A DNA stretch of 34,497 nt from NCBI GenBank assembly GCA_946187775.1, contig CAMHSI010000014.1, positions 1-34,497 on the forward strand, read 5' to 3'. The translations under genes and the position numbers were made by a program. This document shows, in pieces, positions 20,339 to 34,497 of the stretch; positions within the stretch are counted from its first letter, which is position 1, and every line of letters begins with the position of its first letter. The stretch comes from an uncultured Clostridia bacterium. Lineage in GTDB: Bacteria; Bacillota; Clostridia; Christensenellales; Aristaeellaceae. Under the pieces are notes generated by a model. That model had not been told where the DNA came from. It did not search any database and saw nothing but the letters and a program-made list of their open reading frames with translations.

Positions 20339-20374
20339 ACAGGGCATGATTCATGGATGACAGGAGGCTGTTTT

Positions 20375-21574
20375 ATGGCTCTTTCGATTTCCCACCGCTG
20401 TCTCAACATCGCCCCTTCCCTCACGCTGCAGATCGACACCCGGGCCAAGGAAATGGCCGCTTCCGGGCTGAATGTCATCGGCTTCGGTGCCGGCGAGCCT
20501 GATTTCCCGACCCCGCCGCATATCTGCGCCGCCGCGAAGGAAGCCCTGGACCTTGGGTTGACGCGGTATACTCCCGTCGCCGGAACCATGGAGCTTCGTA
20601 TGGCCATCACCCGTAAAATGGAGCGGGATCACGGGCTCACCTATTCCCCCCAGGAAATCCTCGTCTCCAATGGCGCAAAGCATTCACTTTTCAATATTTT
20701 CCAGACGATTCTCGATCCCGGGGACGAGGTCCTGATCCCGACTCCCTGCTGGGTCTCCTATCCCGAGCTGGTCCGCATGGCCGGCGGCGTTCCGGTTTTC
20801 ATCCCCACGGATGAGGAAAACCGCTTCATCCCCAGCAACCGGGACATTGCCTCCCGCGTCACCCGGCGCACCAAGGCCATCATCATTACCTCCCCCTCCA
20901 ACCCCAACGGCTCCGCCTGGTCCCGGGAGCAGCTCCAGTTCGTGGGCAACCTGGCCGTTACCCACCCCTTCTACATCGTCTCTGATGAGATTTACGAGAA
21001 GCTGCTCTATGACGGAAGGGAGCACCTTTCCATCGCCCAGCTGGGTGAGCAGATCAAGGAGCAGACCTTTATCGTCAACGGCGTCAGCAAGGCGTACGCC
21101 ATGACCGGCTGGCGCATCGGCTACTGCGCGGCCCCCCGCCGGGAAATCGCCGCCATGAGCGCCTTCCAGTCCCAGGCCACCAGCAACGCCAACTCCATCG
21201 CCCAGCACGCCGCGGCCGTGGCCCTGGACGGGGACCAGAGCTGCGTGGAGGCAATGCGGGACCAGTTCCAGCACCGCCGGGATGTCATGGTGGAAGGAAT
21301 CAACCGCATCAACGGCATCAGCTGCCTGAAGCCCGAGGGTGCCTTCTATGTGATGATGAACATCCGCTCCCTCCTGGGCCGCCGCTTCAACGGCCGCACC
21401 CTCGAGGATTCCATGGACTTCGCCGAGCTGCTCCTGGCGGAGAAGCACGTGGCCGTGGTTCCCGGCATCGCCTTTGAGGCCGAGGGCTTCTGCCGCCTGT
21501 CCTACGCCATTTCCGCCGAGCGCATCGAGGAAGGCCTTTCCCGCATCGAAGACTTTATCAGCGAACTCAAGTAA
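20375..21574 (+). CDS. aspB: Class I aminotransferase, aspartate type
   Basis: This 399-residue PLP enzyme belongs to the AspB-like subgroup of class I aminotransferases. Visible signatures are FGAGEPDFPTP (37-47), Asn178 in TSPSNPNGSAW, Asp204 and Tyr207 in IVSDEIYEKLLYDG, and Lys239 in NGVSKAYAMTGWRIGY, which forms the Schiff base with PLP. The likely reaction is transfer of the amino group between glutamate and oxaloacetate. The start at 20375 is preferred over 20357 because AGGAGG lies 7 bases upstream and the family begins here. It is followed after 12 bases by an HMGL-family synthase that may make citrate. The pair would then link oxaloacetate, 2-oxoglutarate, glutamate and aspartate. 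The substrate could also be another amino acid, since this subgroup is broad. Confidence 0.88.
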   Translation: MALSISHRCLNIAPSLTLQIDTRAKEMAASGLNVIGFGAGEPDFPTPPHICAAAKEALDLGLTRYTPVAGTMELRMAITRKMERDHGLTYSPQEILVSNGAKHSLFNIFQTILDPGDEVLIPTPCWVSYPELVRMAGGVPVFIPTDEENRFIPSNRDIASRVTRRTKAIIITSPSNPNGSAWSREQLQFVGNLAVTHPFYIVSDEIYEKLLYDGREHLSIAQLGEQIKEQTFIVNGVSKAYAMTGWRIGYCAAPRREIAAMSAFQSQATSNANSIAQHAAAVALDGDQSCVEAMRDQFQHRRDVMVEGINRINGISCLKPEGAFYVMMNIRSLLGRRFNGRTLEDSMDFAELLLAEKHVAVVPGIAFEAEGFCRLSYAISAERIEEGLSRIEDFISELK

Positions 21575-21586
21575 CAGGAGAATGAA

Positions 21587-22981
21587 ATGCTTAAATTTGA
21601 CAATACCACCAACCTGCTGATGCAGGCCAAGTACCACTATTCCCTCCAGGACGTGTCCGAGCCGAACCTGTACCGTGAAATCTACGACTATTCCCACATC
21701 CCGAAGGTCGCCTTCAACATGCGCCACGTGCCCATGCAGATGCCCGACAAGATCTGGATGACCGATACCACCTTCCGTGACGGGCAGCAGTCCGTCAGCC
21801 CCTTCACCCCGGAGCAGATCCTGCATCTCTTCAAGCTCATGAGCCGCCTGGGCGGCCCCAACGGCATGATCCGCCAGAGCGAGTTCTTCCTGTACACCGA
21901 AAACGACCAGAAAGCCCTCCAGCTCTGCCGGGACGAGGGGCTCCGCTTCCCGGAGATCACCTCCTGGATCCGGGCCAATGAAAAGGATTTCGAGCTGGTA
22001 AAGCGCTCCGGCGTGGAGGAAACGGGAATCCTCGTTTCCTGCAGCGACTATCATATTTTCAACAAGATGCACCTCACCCGGTCCCAGGCCATGGACAAAT
22101 ACCTGGGTATCGTGAAAACCGCCCTGAGCTACGGGATCCGTCCCCGCTGCCATTTTGAGGATATCACCCGCGCCGATTTCTACGGCTTTGTGGTTCCCTT
22201 TGCCACCGAGCTCATGAAGCTCTCCCGGGAAAGCGGCATCCCCATCAAGATCCGCGCCTGCGACACCATGGGCTACGGCGTCAGCTATCCCGGTGCCGCC
22301 CTCCCCCGCAGCGTTCCCGGCATCATCTACGGCCTGCGCCACTATGCGGAGGTGCCCTCCGAAATGCTGGAATGGCACGGCCATAACGATTTCTACAAGG
22401 TGGTTTCCAACGCCGCCACCGCCTGGATTTACGGCTGCTCCAGCATCAACTGCAGCCTCCTGGGCATCGGCGAGCGCACCGGCAACTGTCCCCTGGAGGC
22501 CATGGCCGTGGAGTATGAATCCCTCCGGGGCGAAACCAACGGCATGGACCTTACCGCCGTCACGGAAATCGCGGACTACATGGAGCGGGAAATCGGCATT
22601 GAAATCAGCCCCCGCCAGCCCTTCGTCGGCCGCCACTTCAATGTGACCCGGGCCGGTATCCATGCCGACGGCATGCTGAAGGACGAAGAGATCTACAATA
22701 TCTTCGATACCGCCGCCATCCTGAACCGTCCCGCCTCCGTGGCCGTGGACAGCCGGGGCGGCACCGCCTCCGTGGCCCACTGGATCAATTCCTACTTCCG
22801 CCTCACCGGGGACAACACCATCGACAAGAGCGATCCCCTGGTGGTGGAGGTCCGCAAAAATGTGGACGCCCTCTACGCGGAAGGCCGCAACACCGTCATG
22901 GGCGACGAGGAATTGGAAGTCATGGTGCGCCGCGCCGATGTGCAGCGGTATGAGCACCTGCTCTTCCACCGGAGCAAGTAA
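21587..22981 (+). CDS. HMGL-like acyl-CoA:2-oxoacid synthase, probable Re-citrate synthase
   Basis: This 464-residue enzyme belongs to the DRE-TIM (HMGL-like) family, with a TIM barrel that condenses an acyl-CoA with a 2-oxo acid. The N-terminal motif is DTTFRDGQQS (60-69), with Arg64 and Asp65, rather than the LeuA-type DTTLRDGEQ. Metal-site histidines lie in HGHNDFY (264-270). GIGERTGNCPLEAM and GIHADGML follow, features of homocitrate and isopropylmalate synthases. It lacks the C-terminal LeuA regulatory domain. From memory, the combination of FRDGQQ and a length near 460 matches clostridial Re-citrate synthase, which replaces normal citrate synthase in glutamate synthesis. The neighbouring aminotransferase supports this. 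AGGAGA lies 6 bases before the ATG. Isopropylmalate or homocitrate synthase activity remains possible. Confidence 0.8.
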   Translation: MLKFDNTTNLLMQAKYHYSLQDVSEPNLYREIYDYSHIPKVAFNMRHVPMQMPDKIWMTDTTFRDGQQSVSPFTPEQILHLFKLMSRLGGPNGMIRQSEFFLYTENDQKALQLCRDEGLRFPEITSWIRANEKDFELVKRSGVEETGILVSCSDYHIFNKMHLTRSQAMDKYLGIVKTALSYGIRPRCHFEDITRADFYGFVVPFATELMKLSRESGIPIKIRACDTMGYGVSYPGAALPRSVPGIIYGLRHYAEVPSEMLEWHGHNDFYKVVSNAATAWIYGCSSINCSLLGIGERTGNCPLEAMAVEYESLRGETNGMDLTAVTEIADYMEREIGIEISPRQPFVGRHFNVTRAGIHADGMLKDEEIYNIFDTAAILNRPASVAVDSRGGTASVAHWINSYFRLTGDNTIDKSDPLVVEVRKNVDALYAEGRNTVMGDEELEVMVRRADVQRYEHLLFHRSK

Positions 22982-23020: not shown

Positions 23021-23022
23021 CG

Positions 23023-23105
<83 letters not shown>

Positions 23106-30770: not shown

Positions 30771-31964
30771 TCAGCCATTCCCTTCGTTTCCCTGTTCCAC
30801 CGCGTTCATAGGCACCCATACCCGGCGGTTCGTCTTCTGGGTGCTGTCGTAGAACTCAAACTGCACATAGTACCCCTCCTGGGCGTACACGGTGCCGTAG
30901 GTTCCGGCAGGAATCTGCGCGTCATACATGGAGTAGCCGTATCCCGGACCCCAGTAGGCGTACACGGAGCGCGACAGCACCCCCGTGCCCAGGGCGCTTT
31001 CCACAGGCACCATGTCCGCGTTCATGTTCAGCCGCTTGACGCCGGTATAAACCCTGCGCAGCTCTCCCGCGTAGTTCAGCTCCACCTGCACCCACCAGAT
31101 TCCGTTCTTGCCGTCATAAGCGGAGGAAAGGGCCTTGACCCAGGTTCCCGCCTTGAAGTAGGATCCCGTCTCCGTATAGTCCGTCCCGGGACCGGAGCGG
31201 GTGGCCAGCCGGTCGCTGGTCAGCACCTGGATGCCGTTTTCCGGCACCGGGGTCGCGGTCAAGGCGGGGGCCGGCGTAATCGTGGGCAGCGCCGTCGGGT
31301 TCCAGGTCGGATAGGAAGGCACATAGCTCCCGTCATAAATGGCCGGCCCGAACATTTCCTCCAACGTAGAGGGCATAAACAGCAGATCCGCCGTCTGCAT
31401 CACGTAGCGGTTCTTCCCGGTTCCCTGGTACCAGCCCCGGATAAACAGCTCTACCCGGGTCACGTAGTCATGCTTTTTCCTCAGCGCCATCCGCTGGTAG
31501 CCGTCGATCCAGTCCGGGGAAAGCTGGGTGTCGTCCACCGAGTCCTGCAGCTTGAAGCGCTTTTCCTCCAGCAGCTCGTCCCCGTCCCACACCTTCACGT
31601 CCAGGATCATGATCCGGGCGTAATCCGTGTAGGTGTCGGACTGGAATCCGTTCCGGATCCACATGTCCGAAAGGGATGTGCCCCGGAAATAGAAGGTGAT
31701 GTCCGGCGTATCATCCAGGGCTTCGTTGTTCCATCCCGTGTGGGTCATGGTGGTTCCCCACCGGCCGTCCAGCAGGTTCTCCACGCCCCAGGTCATGGGC
31801 TGCCCCTTGTAGGTCAGGGCCGTTTCCCAGTTGGTAGGCATAACGCTGAACGCGGCGATGTTCACCGGGGCCGCGTAGGATCCCCCGTCCGCCATGGCTG
31901 CCGGAATGGCGCACGCCAGCAGTACAACCGCCGCGAGAATGCCCGGAATCCTTCTGCTCTTCAT
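30771..31964 (-). CDS. Secreted protein with discoidin-like and SH3-type domains
   Basis: This 397-residue protein has a signal peptide (about 1-25, ending PAAMADGG). Residues about 45-200 contain a VENLLDGRWGTTMTH motif followed by beta segments (ITFYFRG, YARIMILDVKVWDG). This recalls discoidin-like or NADase-type glycan-binding domains that begin with a NLLDG...T signature. A Pro/Thr-rich linker (about 218-242) leads to an SH3 domain (about 245-314, with RSGPGTDYTETGSYFKAGT) and a second SH3-like module (about 322-392, with YWGPGYGYSMYDAQIPAGT). It is probably extracellular and binds wall or glycan; there is no catalytic motif. The start at 31964 is set by the signal peptide and GGGGGAG upstream. 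The reading from 32261 runs back into the neighbouring gene and is rejected. It follows the synthetase terminator, so it may be independently transcribed. Confidence 0.8.
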   Translation of the reverse strand: MKSRRIPGILAAVVLLACAIPAAMADGGSYAAPVNIAAFSVMPTNWETALTYKGQPMTWGVENLLDGRWGTTMTHTGWNNEALDDTPDITFYFRGTSLSDMWIRNGFQSDTYTDYARIMILDVKVWDGDELLEEKRFKLQDSVDDTQLSPDWIDGYQRMALRKKHDYVTRVELFIRGWYQGTGKNRYVMQTADLLFMPSTLEEMFGPAIYDGSYVPSYPTWNPTALPTITPAPALTATPVPENGIQVLTSDRLATRSGPGTDYTETGSYFKAGTWVKALSSAYDGKNGIWWVQVELNYAGELRRVYTGVKRLNMNADMVPVESALGTGVLSRSVYAYWGPGYGYSMYDAQIPAGTYGTVYAQEGYYVQFEFYDSTQKTNRRVWVPMNAVEQGNEGNG

Positions 31965-32044: not shown

Positions 32045-34342
32045 TTACAGCAGTGCCCGCTGGATTTTTCCGCTTGCGGTCTTCGGCAGGTCCTCCCGGA
32101 AAACAACGATCCGGGGATACTTGTAGGGCGCCGTGTGTGTCTTGACGTAATTCTGGATTTCCTTCTTCAGCTCCTCCGTGGGCTCCGTTCCCTTGGTCAG
32201 CACGATGCTGGCCTTGACCACCTGGCCCCGCACCTCGTCCGGCGCCGCGCTGACGCCGCACTCCAGCACGTAGGGCAGCTCCATGATCACGCTCTCGATC
32301 TCGAAGGGCCCGATCCGGTAGCCGCTGGACTTGATCACGTCGTCCGCCCGGCCCACGTACCAGTAGAAGCCGTCCTCATCCCGCCAGGCCACGTCCCCGG
32401 TGTGATACCAGCCGTCGTGCATAACCTCCCGGGTCTTCTCCTCGTCCCGGTAGTAACCCCGGAACAGGCCGATGGGAATCCCCTTGGAAATGTCCACGCA
32501 AATTTCTCCCGGGGTACCTGCCGCCACCGGCTTTCCTTCCGGATCCAGCAACTCCACCCGGTAAATCGGGGCCACCTTGCCCATGGAGCCCAGCTTGTGG
32601 GCCGCCCCGGCCAGGTTGCCGATGATCATGGTGCTCTCCGTCTGGCCGAAGCCTTCCATCACCTGCAGCCCCGTCTGCTTCTCGATCTGGCGGAAAACCT
32701 CCGGGTTCAGCGCCTCGCCCGCGCTGGAGGCGTGGGTCACCGAGGACAGGTCATACCGGCTCAGGTCCTGCTTGATCAGCATCCGGTACATGGTGGGCGG
32801 CGCGCAGAAGGTGGTGATATGGTATTTCGCGAACAGCGGCAGGATGTCCGCCGCGTCGAACCGGTCGAAGTCGTACACGAAGATGGCCGCCTCGCACAGC
32901 CACTGGCCGTAGATCTTTCCCCAGCCGGCCTTCGCCCATCCCGTGTCGGAAATGGTCAGGTGCAGGCCGTTGGGATTCACGCAGTGCCAGTACTTGGCCG
33001 TGTGCAGGTGCCCCAGGGGATGCTTGTAGCTGTGGGCCGCGATCTTGGGATACCCGGTGGTGCCGGAGGTGAAATACATCAGCATCAGGTCGTCCCCGCA
33101 GGGGGTGTCCTCCGTGCGGTTGAAGTGGGTGGAATACATCTGGTATTCCTCGTCAAAGGAACGCCAGCCCTCCCGGGTGCCGTTCACAATCAGCTTCAGC
33201 TCCAGGCTGGGGGCTTCCTCCGCCGCGATTTCCGCCTGGCGGGCCGTATCCCCGTCCGCCGTGCACAGGATGGCCTTCACGCCGGCGGCGTTGAACCGGT
33301 ATTCAAAATCGTGCTCCTGCAGCTGGGCCACCGCCGGAATCGCGATGGCGCCGATCTTCTCCAGTCCCAGGATGGCAAACCAGAACTGGTAGTGCCGCTT
33401 CAGCACCAGCATCACCCGGTCGCCCTTTTTGATGCCCAGGGACCGGAAATAGTTGGCGCAGCGGTTGGAGGCGCGCTTCAGGTCGTTGAAGGTAAACCGG
33501 TGCTCGTTTTTCTCCCGGTCCAGGTGCAGCATGGCCAGCTTGTTGGGCACCTCCTCCGCGATGGCGTCGATCACGTCGAAGGCGAAATTGAATTTCTCCG
33601 TGTTCTTGAATTCGATCTTCACCGGGGTGCCGTTCTCGTCCTTCTCCACGTCGGCAAACCGGTGCCATACCCGGGTCCGGCCGTTCTCCGCCGGGAATTC
33701 CTGCAGCGCCGTGCCGGGGAGCACCTTTTCCGGCGTCAGCTCCGGAATCGGGGCGCCGGTGGGGTTCAGCACGATGGCGTAAAACAGGCAGTCCTTCCCG
33801 CCTACGGCGATCATCCCGTGGGGCGTGCCGGAATCGTAGTAGATGCTGTCCCCGGGGTTCAGGATGCTGCTGTGCTCACCGACCTGCACCTTCAGCTGTC
33901 CTTCAATGACGATATCGCACTCCTGGCCCTCGTGGGTCGTCAGCTTGATATCCTCCTTCTCCGCCTCCGCGCTGTAGGCCGCCTGCACATACAGGGGCTC
34001 TGCGATCCTGTTCCGGAAGGAGGCGGCCATGTTGTAATACACCATGTCGTGGGCTTCCTCAATCCGCTGGCCCTCTCCCTTCCGGGTCACGGTGAAGGAA
34101 TTCAGGTTCGGGCTGGAGCCCTCGATGATGTCTCCCACGTCCACGCCGAAGGCCAGCGCGCAGCGGTACAGGAAGGCGAAGTTCAGGTCGCTCCGGCCCA
34201 GCTCGCAGTCAATGTATTCCTGCTCCGTAACGCCGGTTTTCATCGCCATCTCCGCGATGGTGAAGTTCTCGATCTCCCGCAGCTCCCGGATCCGGTGGGC
34301 CATCTCCTGGATCTTGTAGTTCAGTCCCGTCATCTGTGCCAT
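32045..34342 (-). CDS. XRE-cupin-AMP-binding fusion: acyl-CoA synthetase with regulator domains
   Basis: This 765-residue fusion has three parts. An XRE-type helix-turn-helix (about 8-72) includes FTIAEMAMKTGVTEQEYIDC. A cupin domain (about 125-192) includes THEGQECDIVIEG and LNPGDSIYYDSGTPHG. An acyl-CoA synthetase of the ANL superfamily (about 245-765) makes up the rest. Its motifs are YFTSGTTGYPK (423-433, phosphate loop), EGFGQTEST, YHTGDVAWRDEDGFYW, VGRADDVIKSSGYRIGP and the C-terminal catalytic lysine in KTASGKIQR. All expected catalytic residues are present, so it should make an acyl-CoA from a carboxylic acid, ATP and CoA; the acid is unknown. The first two domains normally form free-standing regulators. 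The start at ATG 34342 has GGGGAGG upstream; TTG 34366 would overlap the terminator T run. Expression is controlled by a T-box leader, pointing to an amino-acid link. Confidence 0.9.
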   Translation of the reverse strand: MAQMTGLNYKIQEMAHRIRELREIENFTIAEMAMKTGVTEQEYIDCELGRSDLNFAFLYRCALAFGVDVGDIIEGSSPNLNSFTVTRKGEGQRIEEAHDMVYYNMAASFRNRIAEPLYVQAAYSAEAEKEDIKLTTHEGQECDIVIEGQLKVQVGEHSSILNPGDSIYYDSGTPHGMIAVGGKDCLFYAIVLNPTGAPIPELTPEKVLPGTALQEFPAENGRTRVWHRFADVEKDENGTPVKIEFKNTEKFNFAFDVIDAIAEEVPNKLAMLHLDREKNEHRFTFNDLKRASNRCANYFRSLGIKKGDRVMLVLKRHYQFWFAILGLEKIGAIAIPAVAQLQEHDFEYRFNAAGVKAILCTADGDTARQAEIAAEEAPSLELKLIVNGTREGWRSFDEEYQMYSTHFNRTEDTPCGDDLMLMYFTSGTTGYPKIAAHSYKHPLGHLHTAKYWHCVNPNGLHLTISDTGWAKAGWGKIYGQWLCEAAIFVYDFDRFDAADILPLFAKYHITTFCAPPTMYRMLIKQDLSRYDLSSVTHASSAGEALNPEVFRQIEKQTGLQVMEGFGQTESTMIIGNLAGAAHKLGSMGKVAPIYRVELLDPEGKPVAAGTPGEICVDISKGIPIGLFRGYYRDEEKTREVMHDGWYHTGDVAWRDEDGFYWYVGRADDVIKSSGYRIGPFEIESVIMELPYVLECGVSAAPDEVRGQVVKASIVLTKGTEPTEELKKEIQNYVKTHTAPYKYPRIVVFREDLPKTASGKIQRALL

Positions 34343-34364
34343 GGTGTATCCTCCCCTGCTTTTC

Positions 34365-34402
34365 AAAAAAAAGCCCGTCCCAAAGTTTTCTTTGAGACGA
34401 GC
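34365..34402 (-). terminator. Regulated terminator of the T-box leader
   Basis: On the minus strand a 13-base-pair stem (34390-34402 with 34373-34385, including two G-U pairs) has a 4-base loop and eight T (34365-34372). It ends about 23 bases before the ATG. Its 5' arm is shared with the antiterminator. Confidence 0.93.
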
Positions 34403-34497
34403 ATGGATTCATACCCGCGGTACCACTCAAATTGCGGCTTTCCGCCGCCCCTTCAGGCTCTCCGTGAAGCCCTTTTGCCCTTACGCGGCTGGTTCGG
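34373..34497 (-). promoter_or_regulatory. T-box leader (3' part) controlling the XRE-cupin-synthetase gene
   Basis: On the minus strand the T-box core GAGTGGTACCGCGGGT (34413-34428) is present, with TGGT to pair with the ACCA end of uncharged tRNA. It is preceded by a GAGAGCC...GGCGGCGGAAAGCCGC region resembling the conserved stem III segment. The six bases before TGGT (TTTGAG) are complementary to CTCAAA in the 5' arm of the terminator, which gives the expected antiterminator/terminator switch. The 5' part with the specifier loop lies outside the window, so the amino acid cannot be read. Confidence 0.92.

Follow-up and report, generated by a model that had tools for sequence, protein, structure and literature searches.

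A T-box leader before a fused XRE-cupin-acyl-CoA synthetase gene and a predicted alternative route to valine

Why would a T-box, an RNA device that switches a gene on when its amino acid runs short, stand before a gene for an acyl-coenzyme A (acyl-CoA) synthetase, and which amino acid would it answer to? The question is raised by one end of a 34,497-base contig from an uncultured Clostridia bacterium (contig C14 of genome G000, a 1.89-Mb assembly in 111 contigs, 63.6% complete); this entire contig is the stretch of DNA analyzed here and is called the window below. The gene codes for a protein, P0001, in which an XRE-type helix-turn-helix (HTH) domain and a cupin are fused to the synthetase. 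We consider it highly probable, from what the relatives carry, that it represents an isobutyryl-CoA synthetase controlled by a valine T-box, with an isoleucine-box paralog acting on 2-methylbutyrate, which would feed a reductive carboxylation leading to valine and isoleucine.

The T-box leader and its specifier codon

The leader occupies the very end of the window and comprises the following parts, given here with the gene behind it.

34391..34497, minus strand: T-box leader, 3′ part only (RF00230 match; stem I and specifier past the contig end)
34391..34431, minus strand: antiterminator (fold −14.0 kcal/mol, z −2.7)
34425-34422, minus strand: UGGU bulge in the antiterminator, which could pair with the ACCA-3′ end of a tRNA
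34365..34402, minus strand: intrinsic terminator, stem 34402-34373 plus U-run 34372-34365 (fold −20.3 kcal/mol)
32045..34342, minus strand: XRE-cupin-acyl-CoA synthetase gene (P0001, 765 amino acids; ATG 34342, stop 32045)

The program-made list of open reading frames starts the synthetase frame at a TTG (34366), not at this ATG. T-box matches were obtained by Rfam search in E-value mode, the one in the window (34453-34393, 26.7 bits, E 4.4e-4) being restricted to the 3′ part (positions 159-216 of the 219 in the model), because stem I lies off the contig end at 34497. This fragment is below the Rfam gathering score of 93, and at the gathering threshold no T-box was found in the window or in 19 loci with the gene; a match to SgrS in the window (E 0.72) was rejected as chance. 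One of 200 shuffled sequences folded as well as the antiterminator, whose bulge of 7 nucleotides starts with UGGU, and none of 200 did as well as the terminator with its U-run (z −7.0). The 5′ arm of the terminator is the strand common to the antiterminator, GCUCGUCUCAAA, and since both folds use it they are mutually exclusive, as the original prediction, made from the window sequence, had it. An antiterminator with a UGGN bulge competing against a terminator, by which a T-box is recognized, is present in the window, and a motif scan found this one T-box core, in the synthetase leader, and no second.

The missing half of the leader has to be looked for in relatives. A scan of the family gave some protein match in 189 of 200 genomes, many of them partial or to other synthetases, and the ten genomes of the same genus besides G000 hold full-length copies that are 90-94% identical. 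RF00230 was run on 13 loci, ten of them from these genomes and three from other genera; in 12 of the 13 a full-length match (model positions 1-219, stem I included) precedes the gene, with scores of 55.6-87.5 bits and E values from 2.2e-9 to 1.4e-17. The T-box first proposed before the fused gene from a partial leader is complete in these relatives, and the stem I that one would ask for is there. In L015 (genome G026), of the same genus, a 90%-identical orthologue is without a T-box upstream of position 1501.

In order to read the specifier codon, we aligned the leaders and derived a position matrix that masks the codon's own three columns. Across 168 unique full-length relatives (177 records minus nine duplicate views of the same DNA), a specifier was read in 156, and it was either valine (88 leaders: GTA in 63, GTC in 19, GTG in 6) or isoleucine (68 leaders, ATC), with no other amino acid. 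Best-site scores were 10.3 or higher, and no runner-up exceeded 4.2. When the matrix was derived from the valine leaders alone, it read ATC in 68/68 isoleucine leaders; derived from the isoleucine leaders alone, it read GTN in 88/88 valine leaders. Among the 14 close relatives of the window gene, 12 were readable and all 12 have GTN; the other two are the window itself, whose leader is cut off, and L015, which has no T-box. By analogy with these relatives, the T-box of the window gene, its own specifier being cut off, is presumably valine-specific. The response to amino-acid starvation that had been predicted follows from the T-box, and for the close relatives the amino acid is valine.

The 12 unread relatives comprise the window and L159, where the contigs end, six copies located 16-285 bases behind an isoleucine-clade copy (L098_8001, L106_6016, L129_8001, L130_8001, L135_8001 and L140_8001) and four that are unexplained. 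Absence of a T-box by motif search may miss variants, because L044 and L130_5673, which read ATC, have a variant antiterminator that escaped this search. The leaders with the core motif also number 156, which is a different set from the 156 specifier readings, as it includes the window and L159 and excludes L044 and L130_5673. In 155 of them, a 5-bp partner strand for the antiterminator is present, and a strict script recognized a terminator hairpin using this strand in 138; the remaining 18 failed the script, although several show a hairpin by eye. As for the tRNAs, the best 30 of 49 matches were read in G132, of the same genus: they include tRNA-Val with the anticodons tac, gac and cac, and an ACCA end, compatible with the UGGU bulge, is found in tRNA-Val(tac), tRNA-Val(gac) and tRNA-Ile(gat).

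One may wonder whether the T-box belonged to a gene since lost, the synthetase having been captured behind it by chance. The distance from the T-box core to the start codon does vary, from 62 to 303 bases among relatives, but the T-box stays with the synthetase gene in the 156 relatives with a specifier, and a phylum sample of 299 genomes gave three fused full-length copies outside the family (two in G355, one in G268), all three with a T-box whose specifier could be read. The core motif was absent upstream of 39/39 relatives without the fusion (up to 1.4 kb searched, 302 bases only for one of them), namely 12 unfused pairs and 27 others in which stops interrupt the match or its N-terminal part is missing. 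It is the fused form, then, that has the T-box, and we give chance capture almost no credence. A T-box accompanies the three-domain fusion in those 156 relatives, though not in the four unexplained ones.

Neighboring genes, missing ilv genes and the proposed route

P0001 carries four domains, each above its own Pfam cut-off.

34124..34294, minus strand: HTH_19/HTH_3 domain, amino acids 17-73, with an acidic recognition helix (Pfam, charge count)
33773..33952, minus strand: Cupin_2 domain, amino acids 131-190 (Pfam)
32450..33562, minus strand: AMP-binding N-domain, amino acids 261-631 (Pfam)
32066..32302, minus strand: AMP-binding_C domain, amino acids 681-759 (Pfam)

The last two (215.8 and 75.8 bits, respectively) place the protein in the superfamily of AMP-forming acyl-CoA synthetases. 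The closest solved structure to the synthetase is 3etc, which we take to be MacS from M. acetivorans, and the top NCBIfam match of P0001 is MbcS (NF047394), with 442.8 bits, below the curated cut-off of 850. MbcS selectively activates 2-methylbutyrate and isobutyrate (PMC10026030), and the preferred substrate of MacS is 2-methylbutyrate (PMC10455477). Aromatic acids, an early candidate for the substrate, were set aside by the valine and isoleucine specifiers.

The genes found around the relatives are telling. In L180 (G001), a valine box, the synthetase, a leucine box (CTC), a LeuA-like gene, a fusion of a TIM-barrel with an AMP-ligase, a branched-chain aminotransferase, BCAT (486 bits, cut-off 307), a P-loop ATPase, VorB of the 2-ketoisovalerate:ferredoxin oxidoreductase, VOR (529 bits, cut-off 399), and a VOR beta-like gene follow one another on one strand. 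The order in L053 is isoleucine-box synthetase, valine-box synthetase, P-loop gene, VorB (545.5 bits), beta-like and gamma-like genes; L177 has an isoleucine box, a synthetase, a valine box, a synthetase, VorB, a VOR gamma-like gene and BCAT (501 bits); and in L245, from another family, VOR-like genes (named by eye) face an isoleucine-box and a valine-box synthetase. The leucine specifier CTC was read in L029, L030, L037, L038, L041 and L053 (L029 is the same as L037 in the DNA shown, and L030 the same as L180), and the gene behind the leucine box is LeuA-like by eye in L038 and L180. In at least 15 of 36 genomes, a synthetase copy has VorB at a distance of no more than about 7 kb.

These 36 genomes, carriers of the enzyme, were compared with 16 chosen non-carriers for the textbook ilv route. 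IlvC (TIGR00465) and IlvD (TIGR00110), which catalyze two usual steps towards valine and isoleucine, are each over the cut-off in 1/36 carriers versus 7/16 non-carriers, and 14/14 control genomes have both. Neither was over the cut-off in any of 11 same-genus genomes, including the 63.6%-complete G000. VorB (NF005507, cut-off 399) is over its cut-off in 36/36 carriers versus 7/16 non-carriers, with 565.3 bits for the copy on contig C19 of G000, and BCAT was found in 19/21 same-genus genomes. The original prediction had set the target of the T-box apart from classic biosynthetic genes; the specifier, the neighbors and the missing ilvC and ilvD point instead to an alternative valine route, of which this gene is likely the entry enzyme.

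AMP-forming synthetases make acyl-CoA, VOR can carboxylate such a product to a 2-keto acid and BCAT aminates the latter. Uncharged tRNA-Val would turn on, through the valine T-box, an ATP-dependent isobutyryl-CoA synthetase activating isobutyrate from gut fluid; VOR, running in the reductive direction, would carboxylate isobutyryl-CoA to 2-ketoisovalerate, from which BCAT would make valine, and leucine would follow via the LeuA-like enzyme. By the same scheme, the paralog with the isoleucine T-box would lead from 2-methylbutyrate to isoleucine. Which acids are activated, which way VOR runs and that the T-box induces the gene are what we infer from sequence. For rumen fermentation, isobutyrate has been named as the precursor of valine and 2-methylbutyrate as that of isoleucine (PMC7356843), and many of the 80 named loci that we kept, out of 592 confirmed stretches, are metagenome-assembled genomes from rumen or gut, the record titles naming goat, sheep, deer, cattle, buffalo, yak and horse; some of them are possibly from the same organisms as the genomes studied here.

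The same neighborhoods bear on two other uses of the enzyme. It could prime the synthesis of branched-chain fatty acids with isobutyryl-CoA and 2-methylbutyryl-CoA, the T-box only coupling membrane supply to amino-acid status. The closest named family, MbcS, has this priming role in S. aureus (PMC10026030), but some clusters hold VOR, BCAT and leucine-boxed LeuA-like genes, 35 of the 36 carriers miss ilvC and ilvD over the cut-off, and a split of valine and isoleucine boxes by paralog is not needed for lipids; on these grounds, fatty-acid priming seems distinctly unlikely. VOR and the synthetase could otherwise work in the catabolic direction, in a Stickland-type oxidation of valine and isoleucine to acids. 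It would suit this direction that VOR enzymes are reversible and often catabolic. However, an AMP-forming synthetase spends ATP on making acyl-CoA, the wrong way for acid excretion, a T-box responds to scarcity of the amino acid by raising expression, and IlvC and IlvD were not found over the cut-off in the same 35 carriers, so that a catabolic role seems very improbable.

Several observations weigh against valine and isoleucine synthesis by reductive carboxylation. The specifier of the window gene itself is out of sight past the contig end, and all 12 complete leaders score below the Rfam gathering score of 93, three other T-boxes of G000 being under it too (53.3-90.4 bits). Four of the 168 relatives (L015, L106_3704, L155_3795 and L156) have no T-box, which is unexplained. 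The leucine-boxed genes of L041 and L037 are nearest to 2-isopropylmalate synthase with 283 and 279 bits, below the cut-off of 532, and the VOR beta and gamma subunits likewise stay under the curated thresholds of their families. In the genus of the window, VOR is located elsewhere (0/11 near the synthetase), no T-box motif was found at the three VOR loci examined, and BCAT turned up neither in G000 (63.6% complete) nor in G215. A T-box of L178 (G047; 4658, minus strand) before P-loop/VOR genes fits neither valine, isoleucine nor leucine. Finally, the contrast in ilvC and ilvD is confounded by kinship, one carrier, G115, has both genes, and six more have an IlvD-like protein below the cut-off.

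Some further features of these loci deserve mention. The TIM-barrel (xylose-isomerase-like)/AMP-binding ligase fusion behind the leucine-boxed LeuA-like gene lies at 6023-8536 in L180, with similar gene starts at 16972 in L037 and at 2730 (minus strand) in L038, and is perhaps a third acid-activating enzyme. The small P-loop ATPase, of the MinD/ParA/Mrp kind (weak matches), stands before VorB in L180 (9657-10325), L041 (5635-6297) and L245 (11826-12572) and is possibly an iron-sulfur loading factor for VOR. The T-box of L178 has GAA at the usual specifier place and ATC just upstream. Elsewhere in G000, a T-box with an apparent tryptophan specifier (TGG, by eye) is found before a substrate-binding-protein-like gene (L002, contig C4), and another before a thrS-like gene (L003, contig C9), both genes being named by eye.

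Within the window, no Pfam match was found for the gene downstream of the synthetase (30771-31964, minus strand), whose start resembles a signal peptide by eye. A tRNA-Leu(caa) gene lies at 23022-23105 on the minus strand, and an HMGL-like synthase of 464 amino acids (21587-22981, plus strand) is encoded behind an aminotransferase gene (20357-21574). The top NCBIfam matches of this synthase, homocitrate synthase and 2-isopropylmalate synthase, are all below the cut-off; it is not close to the two leucine-boxed LeuA-like genes with which we compared it, and our guess is that it could be a Re-citrate synthase.

Paralog clades, residue 470 and the XRE-cupin part

In a FastTree of the 168 proteins, the valine/isoleucine label changes twice among the 156 labeled rows. 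The clade of the window gene holds 87 valine rows, nine unread and no isoleucine, with two isoleucine rows at its base; the other clade holds 66 isoleucine rows, three unread and one valine row, L050, which sits on a long branch and was flagged by the tool. L050 represents the group of genus g30, in which six complete valine-box copies (GTA in four, GTG in two) are nested in the isoleucine clade, with local Shimodaira-Hasegawa-like supports of 100 for the six, 98 for the surrounding 13-row clade and 99 for the surrounding 77-row clade. In a seventh g30 genome, G196, a GTG leader stands at a contig end and the gene is cut off. Five of the seven g30 copies adjoin VOR genes, and second copies in G069, G150 and G196 read ATC.

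Seventeen of the 765 columns separate the main valine-box and isoleucine-box clades at the 90% level, and only two of these, 470 and 756, also track the specifier in the six g30 enzymes and in both basal isoleucine enzymes (column 94 does so in 5/6 g30 enzymes and not in the two basal ones). In P0001, they correspond to the following codons.

32933..32935, minus strand: codon of Ala470 (SDTGW-A-K), the valine-box type residue (column comparison)
32075..32077, minus strand: codon of Ala756 (LPKT-A-SGK), Ala being found in 3/87 valine-box rows

Residue 470 is Ala with a valine box and Gly with an isoleucine box in 163/163 cases; residue 756 is mostly Val or Thr in valine-box enzymes and Ile in isoleucine-box enzymes (162/163 agree). 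At residue 470, the same rule holds for the three fused copies found in two other families, and the 3etc sequence, with Gly at 470 and Ile at 756, is of the isoleucine type. Presumably, residue 470, which follows the GW motif, lines the acyl pocket, as in acetyl-CoA synthetase; Ala470 as opposed to Gly470 may then relate to the space for isobutyrate, smaller with Ala. Isobutyrate as the substrate is suggested by the valine specifier of the relatives, the contrast between paralogs, the neighbors and residue 470. Two points count against this link: there are only two independent specifier changes, with which a sign test for the residue cannot reach significance, and Ala470 also occurs in relatives without the fusion, which have Ala, Leu or Met where the motif was found, so that it is not diagnostic alone.

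What does the XRE-cupin part do? HTH_19 and Cupin_2 are over their Pfam cut-offs, and in 12/12 relatives read (L204-L215) a separate XRE-cupin gene directly precedes a separate synthetase gene, which would suit a working DNA-binding repressor, the whole protein being a trigger enzyme; this would be compatible with the valine route. The recognition-helix segment of nine residues is acidic, however, with a mean charge of −1.73 (range −4 to 1) in 168 members versus +0.82 (range −1 to 2) in 17 other XRE domains of G000, and the whole HTH has −4.4 versus +1.53; the ranges overlap and the 168 members are related, so that no p-value is to be taken at face value. L199, the one of 19 with an XRE match below the cut-off, was excluded from this comparison, and two of the 17 domains are short. 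The acidic recognition helix makes DNA binding doubtful; repression of genes by the XRE part, as originally put forward, is disfavored, and we regard it as unlikely. The recognition helices of L204-L215 also look acidic by eye. In the cupin, H137, Q140, E141 and H175 are invariant across 30 aligned homologues; for the sensing of its own substrate by the enzyme, which the original prediction also raised, this domain would be the candidate. An old partner of the synthetase family, now an allosteric or assembly module, appears to us more likely than a DNA-binding repressor.

We are evenly divided on a bolder reading that joins these elements: the specifier codon and the enzyme pocket would have switched together in a modular regulon, so that the codon would predict residue 470 and with it the acid used, including in the nested isoleucine-to-valine conversion, and the XRE-cupin part would be a former regulator turned allosteric gate. 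If true, one gene would combine an RNA sensor of tRNA charging with a protein sensor of a metabolite.

Novelty and comparison with known systems

The physiology behind the proposed route is old. Knowledge of the rumen precursors goes back to about 1970, PMC7356843 citing work of 1969 and 1971 on them; Robinson and Allison (1969) and Allison and Peel (1971) reportedly dealt with reductive carboxylation in the rumen. A term search of the main text of the 2008 T-box survey (PMC2494555) gave no occurrence of acyl-CoA, ferredoxin or oxidoreductase, and the open-licence PMC literature held no paper joining T-box with acyl-CoA synthetase, valine and riboswitch. Open-licence papers containing T-box, tRNA and isobutyr- (including PMC2700814) were judged, from titles and the openings of abstracts and, for PMC2700814, from passages of its text, not to describe such control. 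In the open-licence PMC papers searched, we thus met no description of the synthetase genes and their RNA control.

An established RNA device would here act on targets of a new class and account for physiology described long ago. Genes are proposed here for the acid activation, its partners and its control, so that this physiology can be tested at the level of single genes; T-box targets would come to include acid-activating enzymes, and the specifier suggests a way of predicting the substrate of an acyl-CoA synthetase from RNA. The scheme also leads one to expect that such bacteria rely on other organisms for their isobutyrate and 2-methylbutyrate.

Compared with the classic branched-chain amino-acid T-boxes (RF00230), the leaders share stem I with its specifier, the UGGN antiterminator, the strand-sharing terminator and, presumably, induction by uncharged tRNA, whereas the target differs, being an acyl-CoA synthetase of a predicted reductive-carboxylation route. 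The AMP-forming synthetase domain is homologous to MbcS of S. aureus and to MacS; unlike these, P0001 has an N-terminal XRE-cupin fusion and a T-box, scores well below the MbcS cut-off (442.8 versus 850 bits) and has a predicted role in amino-acid rather than lipid synthesis. The XRE-cupin transcription regulators also have an HTH and a cupin, in the same order; P0001 differs in being fused to an enzyme and in its acidic recognition helix. With the rumen reductive carboxylation of isobutyrate and 2-methylbutyrate to valine and isoleucine, the predicted substrates, the products and the habitat agree, and it is the genes and their RNA control that are newly proposed here.

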